From the NCBI GenBank assembly GCA_031292625.1, contig JARLGU010000019.1:310001-374000 (forward strand): DNA of 64,000 nucleotides, given 5' to 3'. This DNA comes from Capsulimonadaceae bacterium. Lineage in GTDB: Bacteria; Armatimonadota; Armatimonadia; Armatimonadales; Capsulimonadaceae. Under the pieces are notes generated by a model. It did not search any database, was not told where the DNA came from, and saw only the letters and a list, made by a program, of their open reading frames with translations. Below are positions 5,037-59,806 of this stretch, piece by piece; within the stretch, counting starts at the first letter, position 1; every line of letters starts with the position of its first letter. Made by a program: the position numbers and the translations under genes.

Positions 5037-5058
5037 TATATCGAAATGTTTCGATATA
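5037..5058. promoter_or_regulatory. Perfect palindromic operator upstream of ene-reductase/arsR operon
   Basis: Arms TATATCGAAA (5037-5046) and TTTCGATATA (5049-5058) are exact inverted copies around TG. The site lies 56 bp upstream of the ATG at 4981, in an AT-rich island, where ArsR-type repressors usually bind. No other structure is seen in the gene-free stretch 4982-5281. Confidence 0.75.
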
Positions 5059-5281
5059 ACGATAAGTTCCCTGCTGCATATTTGAAATGCCCCTTTCCCG
5101 GCAACAAGGAGAGCGTCACGAACGGCGAGAACCGGGATATAGGAGGCAGGGCAAAGGATCCCATGCAGGCCAACACCCCGATCTGGTCCTTGGGAGGGGA
5201 CAGACAGGGCTTGATGGGCGCACAAACGCAGCGCCGCCCACCGGTCCCCCGGCGGACGGCGTCCGCAATCTCCTTGGACCG

Positions 5282-7129
5282 CTACAGCGTTACCGTAATC
5301 GTCGAGTCTTTGAGCAGTTTGGCATCAACCGTCTTCGTAACGCCCCCACGTGTCACGGCGACCTTGTAATCGCCCATGAAACCGCGCGTATGGTAATCTC
5401 CCTTGCCGTCGGTCTTGCCCGATGCGCGCGTCCACCATTGGTGGAGAACGAGGTCCTCATACGCCAGCTCGGATGGACGTTTGCTCCAGTCCAATCGGTA
5501 AAGCGGCGCGCCGTTCGCCGCCATCCAGTGACTGCCCTCCCAAAAGCCCCATTGCACGAACGCGGTTACGGCCGGCTGGCTGAACGCCGCGGTGAGGAAG
5601 TCGCGGACATAGTCGCCCTGGACCTTGTCATCGGGGATACTGGCGTCGAATTCCGTAATCTCGAGAGGCTTGCCGAATTTCGCCATCTCGTCCCATATCT
5701 GCAGCACGCGATGGATTGGAGTCAGCGGCGCGCCCATATGAGCTTGATCGGAGATGACGTCCAGCGGCGCGCCGTGGTCTAGCAGGTACTGGATGCGCTG
5801 CTCGACGAGCTTGCGCTGCTTGCCGCCATCGGGGGATTCGTTGGCGATATTGTAATCGTTGTAGCAAAGCAAGACATTCGGATCGGCCTCGCGCGCCCAC
5901 TTGTAGGCGTTCGCGAAGTTCTCCCATCCGATCCGATCCCAGAGTTCCGTATTTGTCGCGGCCTCGTTGACCACATCCCAGATGTAGACCTGTCCCTTGA
6001 AATCCGCAACAGTATCCGTCACATGCTTGTGAACGGCGGCGACCAGATCGTCGTCGCTGAGATCCTTCATGCCCTTGGGCATATAGCGAAAGGATCCCCA
6101 AACCAGGTTATGCCCACGGACGTCGATCCCGTTCTGATGCAGCCAATCGATGGCCTCGTGGACTCTCGGTCCTCTGTGCCAGTCGGCGAGGTTAGGCCAT
6201 TTCATGTCGCCTTCAAAGGTGATCGTATTGTAGTTTTGCTTGATCGTGTCACGCATTCTTATGTTGTCGGGCGTATCGACCAGCGCGACTTCGGGGTTCC
6301 TGAGAATATTTCCAAATCGAAAGGCATGCCTCGTCATTTCAACCGATACCGCTGCTCCGCTTACCGGCTTGCCGGATGCGTTGACGACACGCACGGTCAG
6401 ATCGCGCTTCCGCAGCTTTTCGATGCGATCGAGCGCGGCCTTGCGCCAAGTATCAGGATGAGCTTGGCCTTCCCAGTAGTCGACCGTCGACCCGCCGATT
6501 GACGAAAGGATCACGAGGGGACTGCCTTTCCCGAAATCGTCCACCCGCACATCCGCAATCTCCACCGTCCCGCTTTGGTACGCCAGATGAAAGCTCAGTT
6601 GGAGCGCTCCTTGCGCGTAATCCCGGCGCGCCTTGCCGATAAAGCGAACTTCCTTCCATTGCTCCGTGGTCAAGGCGCTTTGCTCCGCAACCTTCGTATA
6701 GGGATCGGTTTCCTCCTCAACGAACACGCCCACATGCTGGCCGGCCGACGACCGCAGCCAGACGCGGACGGCGATTATATCGTCCTTCTTGACCGCCTGG
6801 AGAATCGGCTGACGAAGCATCGAGTCCCACGGCTTGCCGTCCGGTGTTGCGGTAACGGCCGCGCTGAGCACGCGCGACGATCCAAAGGGCGACGCGGCAG
6901 GGGACGGGAGCACCTGGATAACCGGTGCGCTTTTTCCGGCGCCCATCCATGTCCCCTCTAGCGGGCTCGCAAAGTTACCGTTCGTAATCATTGAAATCGG
7001 ATGCTCATTCGATTGGGATCGCGCAAACCCGGTGCTTCCAATCAACGCTGCAAACGCGATGATCAACGCGATCCCGGCGCCCGTCATGCCGTACAAGCGA
7101 TCTTTAGCTGACGTATCAACTTTATTCAT
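5282..7129 (-). CDS. GH10 endo-1,4-beta-xylanase with N-terminal carbohydrate-binding domain
   Basis: 615 residues. An N-terminal hydrophobic segment (about 17-36) acts as signal or anchor, followed by a beta-sandwich like CBM4/9 (about 45-200, opening ITNGNFASPLEGTW) and the GH10 TIM barrel (about 240-560). The barrel shows all expected landmarks: RGHNLVWG, acid/base E389 in WDVVNEA, and nucleophile E493 in EITEFDAS. A short beta domain closes the protein. It should cut xylan outside the cytoplasm. It is the third gene of a LacI-pseudopilin-xylanase operon (22 bp after the pseudopilin stop), so expression is expected to respond to xylan-derived sugars. Confidence 0.93.
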   Translation of the reverse strand: MNKVDTSAKDRLYGMTGAGIALIIAFAALIGSTGFARSQSNEHPISMITNGNFASPLEGTWMGAGKSAPVIQVLPSPAASPFGSSRVLSAAVTATPDGKPWDSMLRQPILQAVKKDDIIAVRVWLRSSAGQHVGVFVEEETDPYTKVAEQSALTTEQWKEVRFIGKARRDYAQGALQLSFHLAYQSGTVEIADVRVDDFGKGSPLVILSSIGGSTVDYWEGQAHPDTWRKAALDRIEKLRKRDLTVRVVNASGKPVSGAAVSVEMTRHAFRFGNILRNPEVALVDTPDNIRMRDTIKQNYNTITFEGDMKWPNLADWHRGPRVHEAIDWLHQNGIDVRGHNLVWGSFRYMPKGMKDLSDDDLVAAVHKHVTDTVADFKGQVYIWDVVNEAATNTELWDRIGWENFANAYKWAREADPNVLLCYNDYNIANESPDGGKQRKLVEQRIQYLLDHGAPLDVISDQAHMGAPLTPIHRVLQIWDEMAKFGKPLEITEFDASIPDDKVQGDYVRDFLTAAFSQPAVTAFVQWGFWEGSHWMAANGAPLYRLDWSKRPSELAYEDLVLHQWWTRASGKTDGKGDYHTRGFMGDYKVAVTRGGVTKTVDAKLLKDSTITVTL

Positions 7130-7150
7130 GTCGTTATCAGAATCATCTCC

Positions 7151-7987
7151 TCATTGATCGTCCCACGAATTCCGCGCGTCTCCATATGGCCAGCCCGCGG
7201 GTTGCGATACGCTTACACCGAGAAACTGATCGATCTTCGACCACTTTGAGTGGCCGTCACAGTAGATCACATTCAGTCCGCCGTTGTGCCTTCCAACCGG
7301 CCGGCGGCTGTTGTTCCCGTTTGAATCGTTCGTCGAATAGTTTGTGGACGTTGACGGCACATGAGCGTCGGTAGGATTCCAGCCGCTCGGAGGCACAGCC
7401 TGATAGTCCGATGGACCGGTTTGGAAGTTCGTCCACTGAGTCGAGTCGTAGTTTACCGCCGATGAAGCCCATAGACCGGACGTCGCACTATAGTCGAGTT
7501 GAACGGCCTCGCAAATAATGAACGTCCCTGATGGATTTCCGATCTGCGAGATCGCCCGCGACGGATAGGCATAAGACGACTGCGGATAGTAACTTCCGCC
7601 CAAATTGAAATTGTATCCGTATCCGCCTCCGCCTCTGGTCAAGTTCGACGACGCGACGCCTGGGTAGCCGACGGGAAGATATTCGGTCTTGCTTGGACAA
7701 ACGAATACGCCGTAGCTTTTCGTATAGACTTGCAGATCCGTACTCCATCGCGACGACTTGACGGGGTTGGTCGAGTCATTCCAGCACATCATGGGAAGGA
7801 TTTCGTCGTAGTCCTGAACATATTGCTGGACAGCCAGACCAATCTGCTTCGCGTTCGAGAGACACGCAGTCTGCCGCGCCTTTTCACGGGCCGTTGCGAA
7901 TACAGGAAAGAGAATAGCGGCTAAAATCGCAATAATCGCAATAACAACGAGTAGCTCAATTAATGTAAATGCTTTTCCGGAGTGCAT
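7151..7987 (-). CDS. Type IV-like pseudopilin, H-X9-DG family, in xylanase operon
   Basis: I choose the ATG at 7987 (278 residues) because AAAGGA lies 7 bp upstream; an upstream ATG would add ten residues and almost reach the lacI stop. The leader is only six residues (MHSGKA) before FTLIELL, then a hydrophobic helix, [20 protein letters not shown], a QDYDE motif, and near the end H-X9-DG ([12 protein letters not shown]) followed by HSKW. Processing by a prepilin peptidase is expected. It sits between the lacI gene (19 bp gap) and the GH10 xylanase gene (22 bp gap), so it is part of the xylan regulon and not of a pilus operon. Confidence 0.9.
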
Positions 7988-55769: not shown

Positions 55770-56706
55770 ACAATGGATCGTCGCGGGACGCGTCTGTGTG
55801 GACGGCGTCGTGGTCACCGAATTGGGCGCTCGGGCCGATCCCGCGACGCAACGGGTCACGGTCGACGGCCGTCCGTTGCCATCCACTCAGCAGCGGCATC
55901 ACTACATTGTCCTGCACAAGCCGCGCGGTTACACATGCACGGTCTCCGATCCGCATGCGCACCATGTTATCGGCGAGCTTGTGGACCTCCCTAGCGGCCT
56001 GTTCCTGCGTCCGGTCGGGCGGCTTGACGTAGATTCCGAAGGCCTGATCTTTCTTTCCGATGACGGCGATTTCATCAATCGCATGACCCACCCACGCTAC
56101 CATGTCGCCAAAACCTACTTGGCGACGGTGCGCGGAACGCCTACGGAAGCTGAGCTTGAGCGGCTTCGCAAGGGCGTCTATATCGAGACGGGCAAGACCG
56201 CCCCCGCCGAGAGGGCCGACCTCGTTGGGCAGTTTCCCACGACTGACAGTTCCGATATTGAGCTGGTCATCCACGAAGGCAAAAACCGCCAGGTGAGGCG
56301 AATGATGTCTGCAATCGGCCATCAATGTCTCCGTCTCGTACGGACACAGATCGGACCAATTCGCATCAAGGGGCTTCCGTCCGGAGCGTGGCGGCATCTT
56401 ACGCCGAGTGAGGTGAACCGGCTGATGACGGGCGATACCGATTCGGCCGCTTCATCCGAGCCCATATTTAAATCTGTGGTTTCGCGGACAAGACCTCGCG
56501 CGTCCGCGCGGCCAGCCGAGTCTGTCAAAAACACCCACGCGCCTCGAAGAGGCGCCGTGAGACACCCGGACACGGAAACTCGAAAGCGCATGGATGGTTT
56601 AGGACCGCCGCGCGACCGAAAGAAGGACGAGGAGCCGGAACGAATCGACCGTGCGCGGCGCCCCAGCGCGCCGCGCCAATCCAAGAGGAGAAGAGACAAT
56701 GGCTAA
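55708..56706 (+). CDS. rRNA pseudouridine synthase, RsuA/RluB family
   Basis: ATG at 55708 (332 residues). N-terminal S4 RNA-binding domain ([22 protein letters not shown]) and catalytic domain with D107 in [10 protein letters not shown] and the late motif [13 protein letters not shown]. Acts on large- or small-subunit rRNA. The C-terminal 85 residues or so form a basic, disordered tail ([20 protein letters not shown], ending QSKRRRDNG) beyond the usual length of about 245, probably aiding RNA binding. Starts inside the dac gene and ends overlapping the cyclophilin start. Confidence 0.93.
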
Positions 56707-57157
56707 CCCCACAGCAACCTTGAACACGAACAAGGGACTTATAGAAATGGAGCTATTCGTAGACGAGGCTCCCATCACCGCAGGCAACTTTGTGGATCTG
56801 ATCGGCAAAGGCTTCTACAATGGACTGACCTTTCATCGCTACGAGCCGGGCTTCGTAATCCAGGGCGGCTGCCCGCATGGGACGGGCACGGGCGGATATG
56901 TTGACCCCGCCAAAGGAACCGAGCGGCGAATTTCGTTGGAAGTCTCCAACAGCCTCAAGCACGATTCCGCAGGCGTCGTCGCAATGGCCCGCGCGCAGCA
57001 TCCGGACAGCGCCTCGTCGCAGTTCTACATTACGCTCGCAGCCGCGAGCTTCCTGGACAACAACTACGCCGTCTTCGGCAAGGTCACCAAGGGACTTGAT
57101 GTCGTTCTCAGCCTACGCAAGGGCGACAAGATCGAATCCGCGACCCTATCCAGCTAA
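56699..57157 (+). CDS. Cyclophilin-type peptidyl-prolyl cis-trans isomerase
   Basis: ATG at 56699 (152 residues) with GAGGAG upstream, overlapping the previous stop by 8 bp. Compact bacterial cyclophilin: [43 protein letters not shown] (the catalytic Arg in FHR), [18 protein letters not shown] and the closing [11 protein letters not shown]. No signal peptide, so cytoplasmic. Catalyses proline isomerisation during folding. Confidence 0.95.
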
Positions 57158-57346: not shown

Positions 57347-57370
57347 GGAACAATGACAGTGTCAAACGTT
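57347..57370 (+). promoter_or_regulatory. Possible ECF-type promoter of the sigma operon
   Basis: GGAAC (57347-57351), 15 bp, CGTT (57367-57370) resembles the GGAAC/CGTC-type promoters recognised by RpoE-like sigmas. It includes the small palindrome TGACA-G-TGTCA. If used, transcription would begin at or just after the first ATG (57375), so a downstream start codon would be needed. Confidence 0.4.
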
Positions 57371-57374
57371 CTTA

Positions 57375-58061
57375 ATGTTAAGTCTGGCTGTTTGGGAAAC
57401 TTCCACGGCCCGGAACTTTTCAGGCCGTATCGTCGCTATCAAAAGTGTGATCGCGACTACCGACGAAAGAGCATTGACGTTGGTTACTGACAAAGATCGC
57501 AAAGCGGCCGAAAACGATTCGGCGCTTTTCGAGAGACTTGTCTCGCGACATCAAGAGCGGTTATATCGAATTGCCTATCGCATGACTGGGAACGCCGACG
57601 AGGCGCAAGATCTGCTCCAGGATGCGGTGGTCGAGGCGTACCGGGCTTTTTCGAGCTTTCGGCAGGGAACCTTCTTTGACCGTTGGCTGTACAGAATTAT
57701 GAGCCGGACGTTTATCGACCGGCAGCGTGCGAAGAAGCGGGGGCGCGCGGTATCGCTGGATGCGCCAGCGTTTCAGGCGGATGGTGACGAATCGGGAGGC
57801 GGTTACGAGATCGCGGACACAACCGCGGAGCCGGGGACGCTCATTGAACAGGGCGTTCTGACCGAGTCGCTTGAGGCGGCGATCGCGCAATTAGCGCCGG
57901 ATTTCCGGCTGATCCTGATTCTTGCGGATGTTGAGGAACTGTCATACGACGAAATCGCGGAGATTCTTAGCTGTCCCGTAGGCACGATAAAGTCAAGGCT
58001 ACACCGGGCTCGTTTGCAGGTGAAGACAAAAATGGAAAAAGCCGGCTATATCGGCCGTTAG
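57375..58061 (+). CDS. ECF RNA polymerase sigma factor
   Basis: Up to 228 residues; the real start may be a GTG at 57447 (204 residues), since homology begins only near FERLVSRHQERLYRIAYRMTGNADEAQDLLQDAVVEAYRAFSSF (region 2). Region 2.4 follows (FFDRWLYRIMSRTFIDRQRAKKR) and region 4 closes the protein (SLEAAIAQLAPDFRLILILADVEELSYDEIAEILSCPVGTIKSRLHRAR). First of a three-gene set with a zinc anti-sigma factor and an RseB-like protein, so it should be held inactive until an envelope signal arrives. Confidence 0.93.
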   Translation: MLSLAVWETSTARNFSGRIVAIKSVIATTDERALTLVTDKDRKAAENDSALFERLVSRHQERLYRIAYRMTGNADEAQDLLQDAVVEAYRAFSSFRQGTFFDRWLYRIMSRTFIDRQRAKKRGRAVSLDAPAFQADGDESGGGYEIADTTAEPGTLIEQGVLTESLEAAIAQLAPDFRLILILADVEELSYDEIAEILSCPVGTIKSRLHRARLQVKTKMEKAGYIGR

Positions 58062-58068
58062 TGCAGGG

Positions 58069-58689
58069 ATGGAGCGCGCGGGGAGCGTGCTGAGGCGGAA
58101 ATTGAACGGTAAGTTTCAATCGTGTGCAATCTGTAGCGGCGATAATCTCTCGGCGTTCCTCGACGGCATGCTGGACGGCGGCCGAATGCGCGCCATCGAC
58201 GCGCATTTGAGGGAGTGCCCGGATTGCATGGCGGAGTTTCGCGGTCTGGAACAGACCAGGTCGCTTCTCAGAGGCATGCGACCGAGTGTTCCCGATGCGC
58301 CTGGCGCATTTTGGGCGGATGCCTATCGCACGGCAAGAATAAGCGCGCCGCACGAGGATACAGCGAATTGGATAAGTCGGCCTCGATCATGGAAGCTTGG
58401 CGTCATGGCCACATCGATCAGCTTGGCAGCCGTGTTCGGCATTACCATGCTGATGACGACGCCATCTACCCCGCCAATGCCGCAGATCATATCGCAGGCA
58501 GTCGATCAGGTCGATGTGGCATCGCTTATCTCGGCGCACGCCAATTATATCGCTGGCAAGAAGCTTGCAGATGGATCTGGGAACCGGATCATCAGATCGG
58601 ATCTCGCGTCGCAGTCGAGCGGCGATCCGGGCGTCGTGCCGGCCGATCCACTTCTCGCCGAATCGGCGAGCTATACAACGGCGGATTAA
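58069..58689 (+). CDS. Membrane-bound zinc-finger anti-sigma factor
   Basis: 206 residues, 7 bp after the sigma gene. Putative zinc finger of ZAS type: Cys in SCAICSGDNLSAFLDGML and H-L-R-E-C-P-D-C. One membrane helix (about 105-127, LGVMATSISLAAVFGITMLM) separates a cytoplasmic sigma-binding part from a periplasmic tail of about 80 residues. It should sequester the ECF sigma and be degraded or released on envelope stress. Confidence 0.88.
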   Translation: MERAGSVLRRKLNGKFQSCAICSGDNLSAFLDGMLDGGRMRAIDAHLRECPDCMAEFRGLEQTRSLLRGMRPSVPDAPGAFWADAYRTARISAPHEDTANWISRPRSWKLGVMATSISLAAVFGITMLMTTPSTPPMPQIISQAVDQVDVASLISAHANYIAGKKLADGSGNRIIRSDLASQSSGDPGVVPADPLLAESASYTTAD

Positions 58690-58690
58690 C

Positions 58691-59806
58691 GTGACAGCCA
58701 TCCGCATCGCATCGATTTGTTGGCTTGCGGCCATTCTATTGCCGGTTGTCGTTGGAGCAGGAGCGGGAGCGTCCTCCTCGGTGGCCCCCGTTCACGCGCC
58801 AAAGCCGCCGGATGCTTTCGCGCTCTACCGGAAATCCGTCGATGCCGCAGACGGCTGCTCTTTTGCTGGACATCAATACGTAACCACGTGGAGCGACGAC
58901 GGCCGATCGAGCACGGTCGTCGCCCGCGTCTATCATCAGGCGCCGGACCAATTCTTCCTTCGCTTTCTCGCGCCCCGCACCCGTGCAGGCCGGGTTATCC
59001 TTGAAAACAAGGCGAACCAATGGACCTTCGTGCCATCGCCGAAAACTGTTATCCATACCGCAAAGTCCACGGCGGCTCGGGAGGATGTCAACCCTGACTT
59101 GCTGCGAGCCCACTATAGCTTCACGATCGGCGCAAAGCGGGACCGGATCGCCGGTCGGGACGCGTATGTCATATCGCTCACGTCAAAAATCCGCAAGGAC
59201 CGGGCTATCCGCTACTGGATTGATCCCTATACGGGCATCGCGCTCAGAACGGAACGCTATCATGCAGGCGGAAACCTGGCATTCGTTTCCTACTATAGCG
59301 ACATCAACTTCCATCCGAAGTTTGCCCCTAGCCAGTTCTCGCCCTCCCAGTGGACCGGCGCGAAGGTCGAGCAGTCTCGCGAGAGTCCGTCGAACCCGGA
59401 AGAGCTTGGCGTGCAAAACATCTCGTCAAATCTGAATGGAGAGCTGTTCGCCCCGCCGCGAATCCGGGAGTACACGCTCGTCGGCGTGACAAAAATGCAG
59501 GAAGCATCCCGCCAAACCCTGCACCTCCATTATTCCGACGGCCTCTCCAATCTCTCGCTATTCGAGACGCTCAAGCATAACCGCCGCGCAACGCACATGG
59601 CCGGTTCAAAGCCGGTTCGCATCGGCGGCCAGGCGACCGGGCGGCTAAGCGAACGCTTTAACTATTGCTTGCTCAACTGGGACTCCAAGAATCTAAGTCT
59701 CACGCTACTCGGCGACGTCAGCCCCGAAACCCTCCTCGATCTCGCGACGGCCCTGGTTCCCCCTGGCCCTCACAATGCCGCGGCACACTCCTGGCGCGCT
59801 CCTTAG
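58691..59806 (+). CDS. RseB/MucB-like or lipoprotein-carrier-fold exported protein
   Basis: GTG at 58691 (371 residues), 1 bp after the anti-sigma stop; the longer open frame lies inside that gene. N-terminal signal (ICWLAAILLPVVVGAGAGA). The mature half resembles the MucB/RseB N-domain, related to LolA/LolB folds: DAADGCSFAGHQYVTTWSDDG, YHQAPDQFFLRF, GRDAYVISL, RYWIDPYTGIALRTERY. In RseB the protein shields the anti-sigma from proteolysis and senses lipid or mislocalised envelope components. The gene order makes that role likely here. Confidence 0.78.
   Translation: MTAIRIASICWLAAILLPVVVGAGAGASSSVAPVHAPKPPDAFALYRKSVDAADGCSFAGHQYVTTWSDDGRSSTVVARVYHQAPDQFFLRFLAPRTRAGRVILENKANQWTFVPSPKTVIHTAKSTAAREDVNPDLLRAHYSFTIGAKRDRIAGRDAYVISLTSKIRKDRAIRYWIDPYTGIALRTERYHAGGNLAFVSYYSDINFHPKFAPSQFSPSQWTGAKVEQSRESPSNPEELGVQNISSNLNGELFAPPRIREYTLVGVTKMQEASRQTLHLHYSDGLSNLSLFETLKHNRRATHMAGSKPVRIGGQATGRLSERFNYCLLNWDSKNLSLTLLGDVSPETLLDLATALVPPGPHNAAAHSWRAP

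Follow-up and report, generated by a model that had tools for sequence, protein, structure and literature searches.

A probable RseB-gated envelope-stress switch built on a zinc-type anti-sigma factor in a member of the Armatimonadota

The window analysed here is the whole stretch of 64,000 nucleotides (nt) at positions 310,001 to 374,000 of contig JARLGU010000019.1 (GenBank assembly GCA_031292625.1, Capsulimonadaceae bacterium), and all coordinates refer to it unless another locus is named. Three open reading frames (ORFs) follow one behind another on its + strand and encode an extracytoplasmic function (ECF) sigma factor, an anti-sigma factor and an exported protein. Between the last base of the sigma stop codon (58061) and the anti-sigma ATG (58069) there are 7 nt; a single nt separates the anti-sigma stop codon, whose last base is 58689, from the GTG of the third gene at 58691. 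A first-pass annotation, made from the sequence itself, had described the three genes as an ECF sigma factor, a zinc-finger membrane anti-sigma factor and an RseB/MucB-like exported protein in tandem, in a genome of probable Armatimonadota origin. All three ORFs are confirmed and the phylum is right. The features of the locus are the following.

57412 to 57437, + strand: probable promoter of the ECF operon; only match in the window to GGAACTTTT-N13-CGCT, kept in relatives
57480 to 58061, + strand: ECF sigma factor; Pfam Sigma70_r2 64.3 bits and Sigma70_r4_2 61.8 bits, start placed by its context
58069 to 58689, + strand: membrane-spanning zinc-type anti-sigma factor of 206 amino acids; Pfam zf-HC2 38.8 bits, profile match to RsiW (5wuq)
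58141 to 58227, + strand: zinc-finger core, anti-sigma residues 25-53, ending in HLRECPDC; Pfam, invariant H46, C50 and C53
58396 to 58452, + strand: predicted transmembrane segment, anti-sigma residues 110-128; mean hydropathy 1.95 over 19 residues
58516 to 58572, + strand: proposed RseB-docking helix and the stretch next to it, anti-sigma residues 150-168, including H157; conservation and motif counts
58691 to 59806, + strand: exported MucB/RseB-type protein of 371 amino acids, GTG start; Pfam, family profile and structural model
58802 to 59386, + strand: RseB N-domain (LolA-like), residues 38-232; range common to LolA and RseB chains
59438 to 59758, + strand: RseB C-domain, residues about 250-356; SDGL core common to the family, and RseB/MucB chains alone extend here among the matches listed

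The identity of the third protein decides how the locus is to be read. Taken singly, the protein makes a weak case for RseB. Its N-domain lies above the Pfam cut-off for MucB_RseB (29.6 bits, cut-off 22.3), the best Pfam row is LolA_like (36.0 bits, cut-off 30), and MucB_RseB_C reaches only 17.3 bits, under its cut-off of 30.1. A scan of NCBIfam listed no family at E 1, a single-sequence search of the PDB returned a LolA-superfamily protein as the sole row at E 1 (E 0.0042), and a search of genome contigs with this protein alone detected no relative. The LolA_like row and the PDB row would suit a mere LolA-like lipoprotein carrier that makes no contact with the anti-sigma factor. It is the family alignment that makes the RseB kinship clear. 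A profile of 25 family members matches MucB of Pseudomonas aeruginosa (6in8) at E 3e-26 over positions 28-339 of 339 and Escherichia coli RseB at E 3e-15, whereas LolA-type chains follow at 4e-6 and worse. When the 25 members are run singly at E 0.01, MucB_RseB is matched by 24, LolA_like by 19, MucB_RseB_C by 11 and LolA (PF03548) by one, at E 0.0077. An AlphaFold2 model of the third protein, with a mean predicted local distance difference test score (pLDDT) of 85.8, has E. coli RseB as its best Foldseek row (E 6e-17), and VIA-align superposes residues 38-369 of the model on E. coli RseB (2v42) with Z 21.1 and a root-mean-square deviation (rmsd) of 3.3 over 272 aligned residues. LolA chains reach Z 15.1 at most and cover the N-domain only (about residues 36-232 of the model), a single-domain uncharacterised Thermus protein (2yzy) reaches Z 16.9 over residues 40-229, and among the best 50 rows the C-domain of the model is covered by RseB/MucB chains alone. 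A result confined to carrier families, which had been set beforehand as the outcome that would speak against the annotation, did not occur: MucB_RseB was matched and the RseB fold extends over both domains. We rejected a carrier with a single LolA-like domain, as a second domain is present and only one of the 25 members matches PF03548, and we regard a mere carrier of any LolA-like kind as very unlikely. By its profile and modelled fold, the third protein is best described as a two-domain RseB relative.

The anti-sigma factor is of a different kind from the one that accompanies RseB in E. coli. Its HxxxCxxC motif, a putative zinc site, and its single hydrophobic segment fit the definition of membrane-anchored ZASD anti-sigma factors, for which HxxxCxxC is the defining motif (PMC4598750). 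An alignment of 28 anti-sigma factors from such loci shows no variation at H46, C50 and C53. The domain of RseA is held by hydrophobic contacts and that of ChrR by structural zinc (PMC4598750). A profile built from the 28 anti-sigma factors matches RsiW (5wuq, E 4e-13), ChrR and RsrA, and neither RseA nor MucA is among the 19 PDB matches listed for it. For the window protein, zf-HC2 and SIP1 are the only Pfam rows at E 1, and the NCBIfam model anti_sig_RseA gives 21 bits, far under its cut-off of 165. Membership in the RseA/MucA family was rejected on the zinc motif, the low anti_sig_RseA score and the profile matches. The locus had been likened to an RpoE-RseA-RseB trio; that likeness holds for the RseB part and the gene order and fails for the anti-sigma factor, which by sequence is RsiW-like, not RseA-like. 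Judged in this way, the locus joins an inhibitor of the RsiW type to a guard protein related to RseB.

The arrangement had been singled out as worth comparing in a probable member of the Armatimonadota. It is no exception there: the trio is widespread in the phylum, where the 25-member profile matches at least 274 of 291 genomes (E 1e-6) and at least 149 of 156 genera. At most seven candidates were scored per genome, so that these tallies, as well as those for Actinomycetota below, are lower bounds, and the 274 genomes count profile matches rather than trio membership of each match. Gene order was followed in the 104 of 111 Armatimonadota RseB-like genes that have at least 1100 nt of upstream sequence, drawn from best-match loci and 60 regions picked by eye and thus not random. 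An ECF sigma gene lies within 1500 nt upstream in 102 of them, 96 with a zinc-finger membrane ORF in between and six without the zinc motif; the remaining two (L172 and L196) have a zinc-finger ORF with no sigma gene found, and none has neither. The window genome (5.77 Mb) contains a second trio on contig C12. With 24 sigma-70 region-2 matches in the genome, both of its detected RseB-like genes nevertheless sit behind a sigma gene, and the linkage is therefore beyond chance. The window sigma factor is 50-52% identical to those of the related loci L003-L006, and its ten best named relatives comprise eight from Armatimonadota (Chthonomonadales among them) and two from metagenome bins labelled Bacillota or Firmicutes. 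A trio is also found on JACQGL010000035.1, labelled 'Armatimonadetes bacterium', with protein lengths as in the same-phylum genome G038.

The order of sigma factor, anti-sigma factor and RseB is that of E. coli, which could indicate a recent transfer of the trio from Proteobacteria. The wide distribution of the profile in the phylum and the different class of the anti-sigma factor both stand against such a transfer. In a FastTree reconstruction of 72 proteins the four gammaproteobacterial rows form a group with support 1.0, separate from those of Armatimonadota and Actinomycetota. Of the 23 Actinomycetota rows, 21 fall together; a further group, with a support of only 0.378, is made up of the window protein and 44 Armatimonadota rows, with two Actinomycetota rows among them. 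The sample consisted of 45 shuffled Armatimonadota rows (44 after removal of one duplicate) and only four gammaproteobacterial rows. The grouping disfavours a recent transfer, which we consider extremely improbable.

The sigma frame is open from 57375. TTG at 57480 is the likelier start because AAAGAG is located 8 nt ahead of it and because the resulting product of 193 amino acids is close in length to the 192 amino acids of the L004 and L005 proteins. The element GGAACTTTT-N13-CGCT at 57412-57437 (17 nt from GGAAC to CGCT) overlaps the long version of the sigma ORF and is a single match in the window where 0.01 is expected. The same element precedes the sigma gene in L003, L004, L005 and L007; it was not matched in L008, nor in L006, where little upstream sequence is available. 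Of 117 regions preceding a sigma gene, 58 contain the pattern GGAAC-N13-18-CGT[ACT], compared with a mean of 2.8 and a maximum of 9 in 100 block shuffles, and 57 of 62 spacings are 16-18. The window matches to this pattern have spacings of 15 (57347) and 14 (57412). The first-pass annotation had placed an ECF-like promoter at 57347. An element of this type is present, and its likely position is 57412-57437, 65 nt further down; GGAAC at 57347 was ranked second on account of its unusual N15 spacing to CGTT and because the nearest relatives keep the other element. A promoter at 57412-57437 would likely start transcription shortly ahead of TTG 57480, which excludes ATG 57375 as the start for that transcript. 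If the promoter is real, the operon is probably under the control of its own sigma factor, as is common for ECF operons. In L007 a second copy, GGAACNTTT-N13-CGCT (229-254, - strand), points away from the trio, and the same sigma factor may also drive the divergent gene there.

The part of the anti-sigma factor beyond the membrane span is where an RseB-type protein would be expected to dock. The column of H157 is at least 90% conserved in the 28 aligned proteins, in the context [YFL][VLI]xxHxxxxxxxP[LFV]. Motif counts were made in outer tails thinned for kinship (from 131 to 113 tails of trios and from 41 to 39 control tails of anti-sigma factors without an RseB-like neighbour), which are still not independent. 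The motif [YFLMW][ILVMA]xxH is present in 50 of 113 trio tails (7.0 in shuffles, maximum 15) and in 7 of 39 control tails (3.5 in shuffles); HxxxxxxxP is present in 48 of 113 (12.6, maximum 22) compared with 8 of 39 (5.3). The window helix VASLISAHANYI was set by eye against its counterparts in RseA, namely RINAMLQDYELQ (E. coli), RLGLMLQQYELD (Proteus), RINAFLRDHQLQ (Aeromonas) and RINAYIMDHAQQ (Catenovulum), where the H157 column is His in two of the four proteins and Tyr in the other two. Helix alpha-I of MucA (residues 157-177) is the major MucB-binding element, and changes of W158, R162 and H170 abolished the complex while most other MucA mutants still bound (PMC7400510). When H170 of MucA is set on the His/Tyr column, the position of R162 is taken in each of the four RseA proteins by an Arg that precedes this column by eight residues, in line with the placement. 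In this comparison, in which MucA was placed without its tail sequence, H157 is a candidate counterpart of H170, and Asp stands in the window protein at the position of R162, which has no Arg counterpart. The H157 motif is accordingly described here as a candidate for a short helix that, compared by eye, resembles the RseB-docking helix of RseA. A profile link between the anti-sigma tail and RseA/MucA chains was also sought, without success; the matches to known anti-sigma factors cover the cytoplasmic part alone. Five loci from family f14 genomes (L209, L216, L221, L222 and L228) have outer tails without the conserved His and carry a DP[FLM]GG stretch instead.

The same combination extends to a second phylum. 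The 25-member profile matches at least 47 of 296 Actinomycetota genomes at E 1e-8, and 28 of 31 distinct loci were used, three with short upstream sequence being left out. A sigma gene is present in 17 of the 28, together with a zinc-finger anti-sigma gene in 13 and as the only partner in four, the fusion L277 being counted among the four. The named isolates that carry a trio or a fusion belong to three species of Phytoactinopolyspora and to Granulicoccus phenolivorans. In L141 (G. phenolivorans DSM 17626) and L277 (Actinomycetota), a single frame encodes the zinc finger, the membrane span and the RseB-like part. Pfam finds both zf-HC2 (26.0 bits, cut-off 22.2) and MucB_RseB (23.8 bits, cut-off 22.3) in L277; for L141 it lists zf-HC2 alone (28.3 bits), and the RseB part is a match to the family profile (E 1.6e-15). 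The model of L277 is poor in the middle (pLDDT 66.4, under 50 for 171 of 450 residues), and its 15 best Foldseek rows are all RseB/MucB chains (E 4e-9 to 3e-7). The start of this model compares weakly with RsiW (Z 6.8, rmsd 6.0, a range common for helical parts), and the zinc-finger call in L277 is taken from Pfam. Because fused genes often encode partners, the fusions are indirect evidence that the anti-sigma factor and the RseB-like protein touch each other.

Seven further candidates for fusions with the C-domain only (L109, L121, L122, L135, L136, L139 and L140) were weak and are not counted: MucB_RseB_C is listed for none of them at E 0.05, and our own C-domain profile gives E 7e-4 for L121, 0.0035 for L122, 0.03 for L139 and no match at E 10 for the other four. 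L121, L122 and L139, and L135 by eye only, are long Actinomycetota anti-sigma factors whose outer part weakly resembles a lone RseB C-domain.

The window trio shares with RpoE-RseA-RseB of E. coli the order of sigma factor, membrane anti-sigma factor and RseB, the RseB fold and, in the outer tail, a candidate helix for docking, and it probably works in a similar manner; it differs in having a zinc-type domain where E. coli has the RseA type, and in the absence of rseC behind the trio. AlgU-MucA-MucB of P. aeruginosa provides the closest solved protein by profile, MucB, and differs in that the N-domain of MucA is RseA-like (6in7 was found with E. coli RseA). SigW-RsiW of Bacillus subtilis has the zinc-type membrane anti-sigma factor in common with the window, RsiW being the PDB entry that the anti-sigma profile matches best, and is not known to include an RseB-type partner. 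The proteases of that system are PrsW and RasP (PMC4598750). SsdC (YdcC), also from B. subtilis, is RseB-like and from outside the Proteobacteria; it differs in being membrane-anchored and in influencing spore shape, and the term 'anti-sigma' is absent from the main text of its description (PMC7769602).

In E. coli and P. aeruginosa, RseB/MucB shields the tail of the anti-sigma factor from site-1 cleavage, and lipids release RseB/MucB (PMC7400510, PMC4598750, PMC8103513). We propose, with a probability of about 0.78, that the three genes constitute one operon for an RseB-gated ECF envelope-stress switch. The anti-sigma factor would keep the ECF sigma factor at the membrane by means of its zinc-type domain, and the exported RseB-type protein would dock on the outer tail at the helix around H157. 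By analogy with the proteobacterial systems, docking would shield the tail from a site-1 protease until a signal of lipid type, a lipid or a lipoprotein bound in the N-domain, caused the RseB-type protein to release it. An HtrA-type protease might then cut the tail, an M50 site-2 protease might follow, and the sigma factor, once free, would transcribe its own operon from the GGAACTTTT promoter. The window genome has five trypsin-like protease matches, M50 proteases (four matched stretches at three places) and LpxC (241 bits), and because these genes are present a chain of the E. coli style, with DegS-type site-1 and RseP-type site-2 proteases and with lipopolysaccharide (LPS), is possible. LpxC was detected in 278 of the 291 genomes from Armatimonadota. 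Elsewhere in the window genome, L155 (contig C36 of G000, 527-2350) has a sigma/zinc-finger anti-sigma pair followed by a gene for a trypsin-like (HtrA-type) protease and no RseB-like gene; its product is a candidate site-1 protease.

Several observations weigh against this proposal, in addition to the LolA_like row and the low MucB_RseB_C score of the third protein. The operon contains no protease, and none in the genome is tied to the window anti-sigma factor. The rseC gene is missing behind the trio in the window, where a gene for a flavin adenine dinucleotide (FAD)-dependent oxidoreductase is the next gene downstream. The tail patterns were chosen after the tails had been viewed, and [YFLMW][ILVMA]xxH is absent from 63 of 113 trio tails. 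An RseB-like protein can have quite a different job, as the role of SsdC in spore shape illustrates (PMC7769602). Finally, 11 of the 28 Actinomycetota RseB-like loci have neither a sigma nor an anti-sigma neighbour. Seven of the 11 end at profile position 236 or before, which corresponds to about the N-domain, and in L279 the gene at 1495-2841 matches both RseB domains (profile positions 65-338) with no sigma or zinc-finger anti-sigma gene found upstream.

The partnerless loci also fit a scenario in which the sigma factor controls the exported protein and is not regulated by it: the protein would be the first member of the regulon, with an envelope-building or lipid-handling function comparable to that of SsdC. 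A similar message could be taken from L063, where an RseB-like part is joined to a polysaccharide deacetylase domain (5042-7486) behind a sigma/anti-sigma pair. However, the RseB-like gene stays behind the sigma and anti-sigma genes across diverse Armatimonadota, the anti-sigma tails carry an enriched motif, and L141 and L277 hold both parts in one chain. We consider an output function unlikely and favour the gating of the anti-sigma factor by the RseB-type protein.

RseB-like partners had been described by the first-pass annotation as known mainly from Proteobacteria, in agreement with the searchable papers, in which SsdC (PMC7769602) is an exception of different function. In that literature, which leaves most subscription papers outside, we found no description of a zinc-type anti-sigma factor combined with RseB and no paper covering both RseB and Armatimonadota. 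The signal of RseB, and the reason for a second lock besides the protease, have been worked out in a few Proteobacteria. Against this background, nearly all members of a distant phylum have a relative of the RseB-type sensor, which is also present in Actinomycetota. Among 24 hand-picked Actinomycetota genomes, chosen for an RseB-like gene that is fused or follows a sigma gene, LpxC was matched in only one and not found in 23; the single positive (G295, from L114) is a metagenome bin in which mixing is suspected. If the Actinomycetota systems work alike, LPS is not their signal, since LpxC was not found in 23 of the 24 genomes, and LPS is then not the only RseB signal.

These results hint that the sensor part is older than the E. 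coli version and not tied to it. It is possible, and we offer this tentatively, that RseB gating is an old and general module which operated also, perhaps first, with zinc-type anti-sigma factors and which senses a lipid or lipoprotein common to cells with one and with two membranes, the version with LPS and an RseA-type inhibitor having arisen later. Under such a scenario a shared docking helix that ends in an aromatic residue or Leu, a hydrophobic residue, two variable residues and His would mark many of the partners, and the fusions would be self-contained sensors. Which ligand was the original one can be tested directly, given pairs that lend themselves to cloning, H157 as a target for point mutation, fusions that occur in nature and hosts in culture.

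Some loci depart from the usual form of the trio. The sigma gene and the RseB-like gene of L203, L219, L227 and L231 flank a membrane ORF that has 148-165 amino acids and lacks HxxxCxxC, and these cases suggest that zinc may have been lost more than once. L021 has a membrane ORF of 123 amino acids without the zinc motif in this position, and none was seen in L214. Just upstream of the trio the window contains a gene for a cyclophilin-type isomerase (56699-57157), and in L003 and L005, too, the ends of similar isomerase frames were recognised by eye before the trio.

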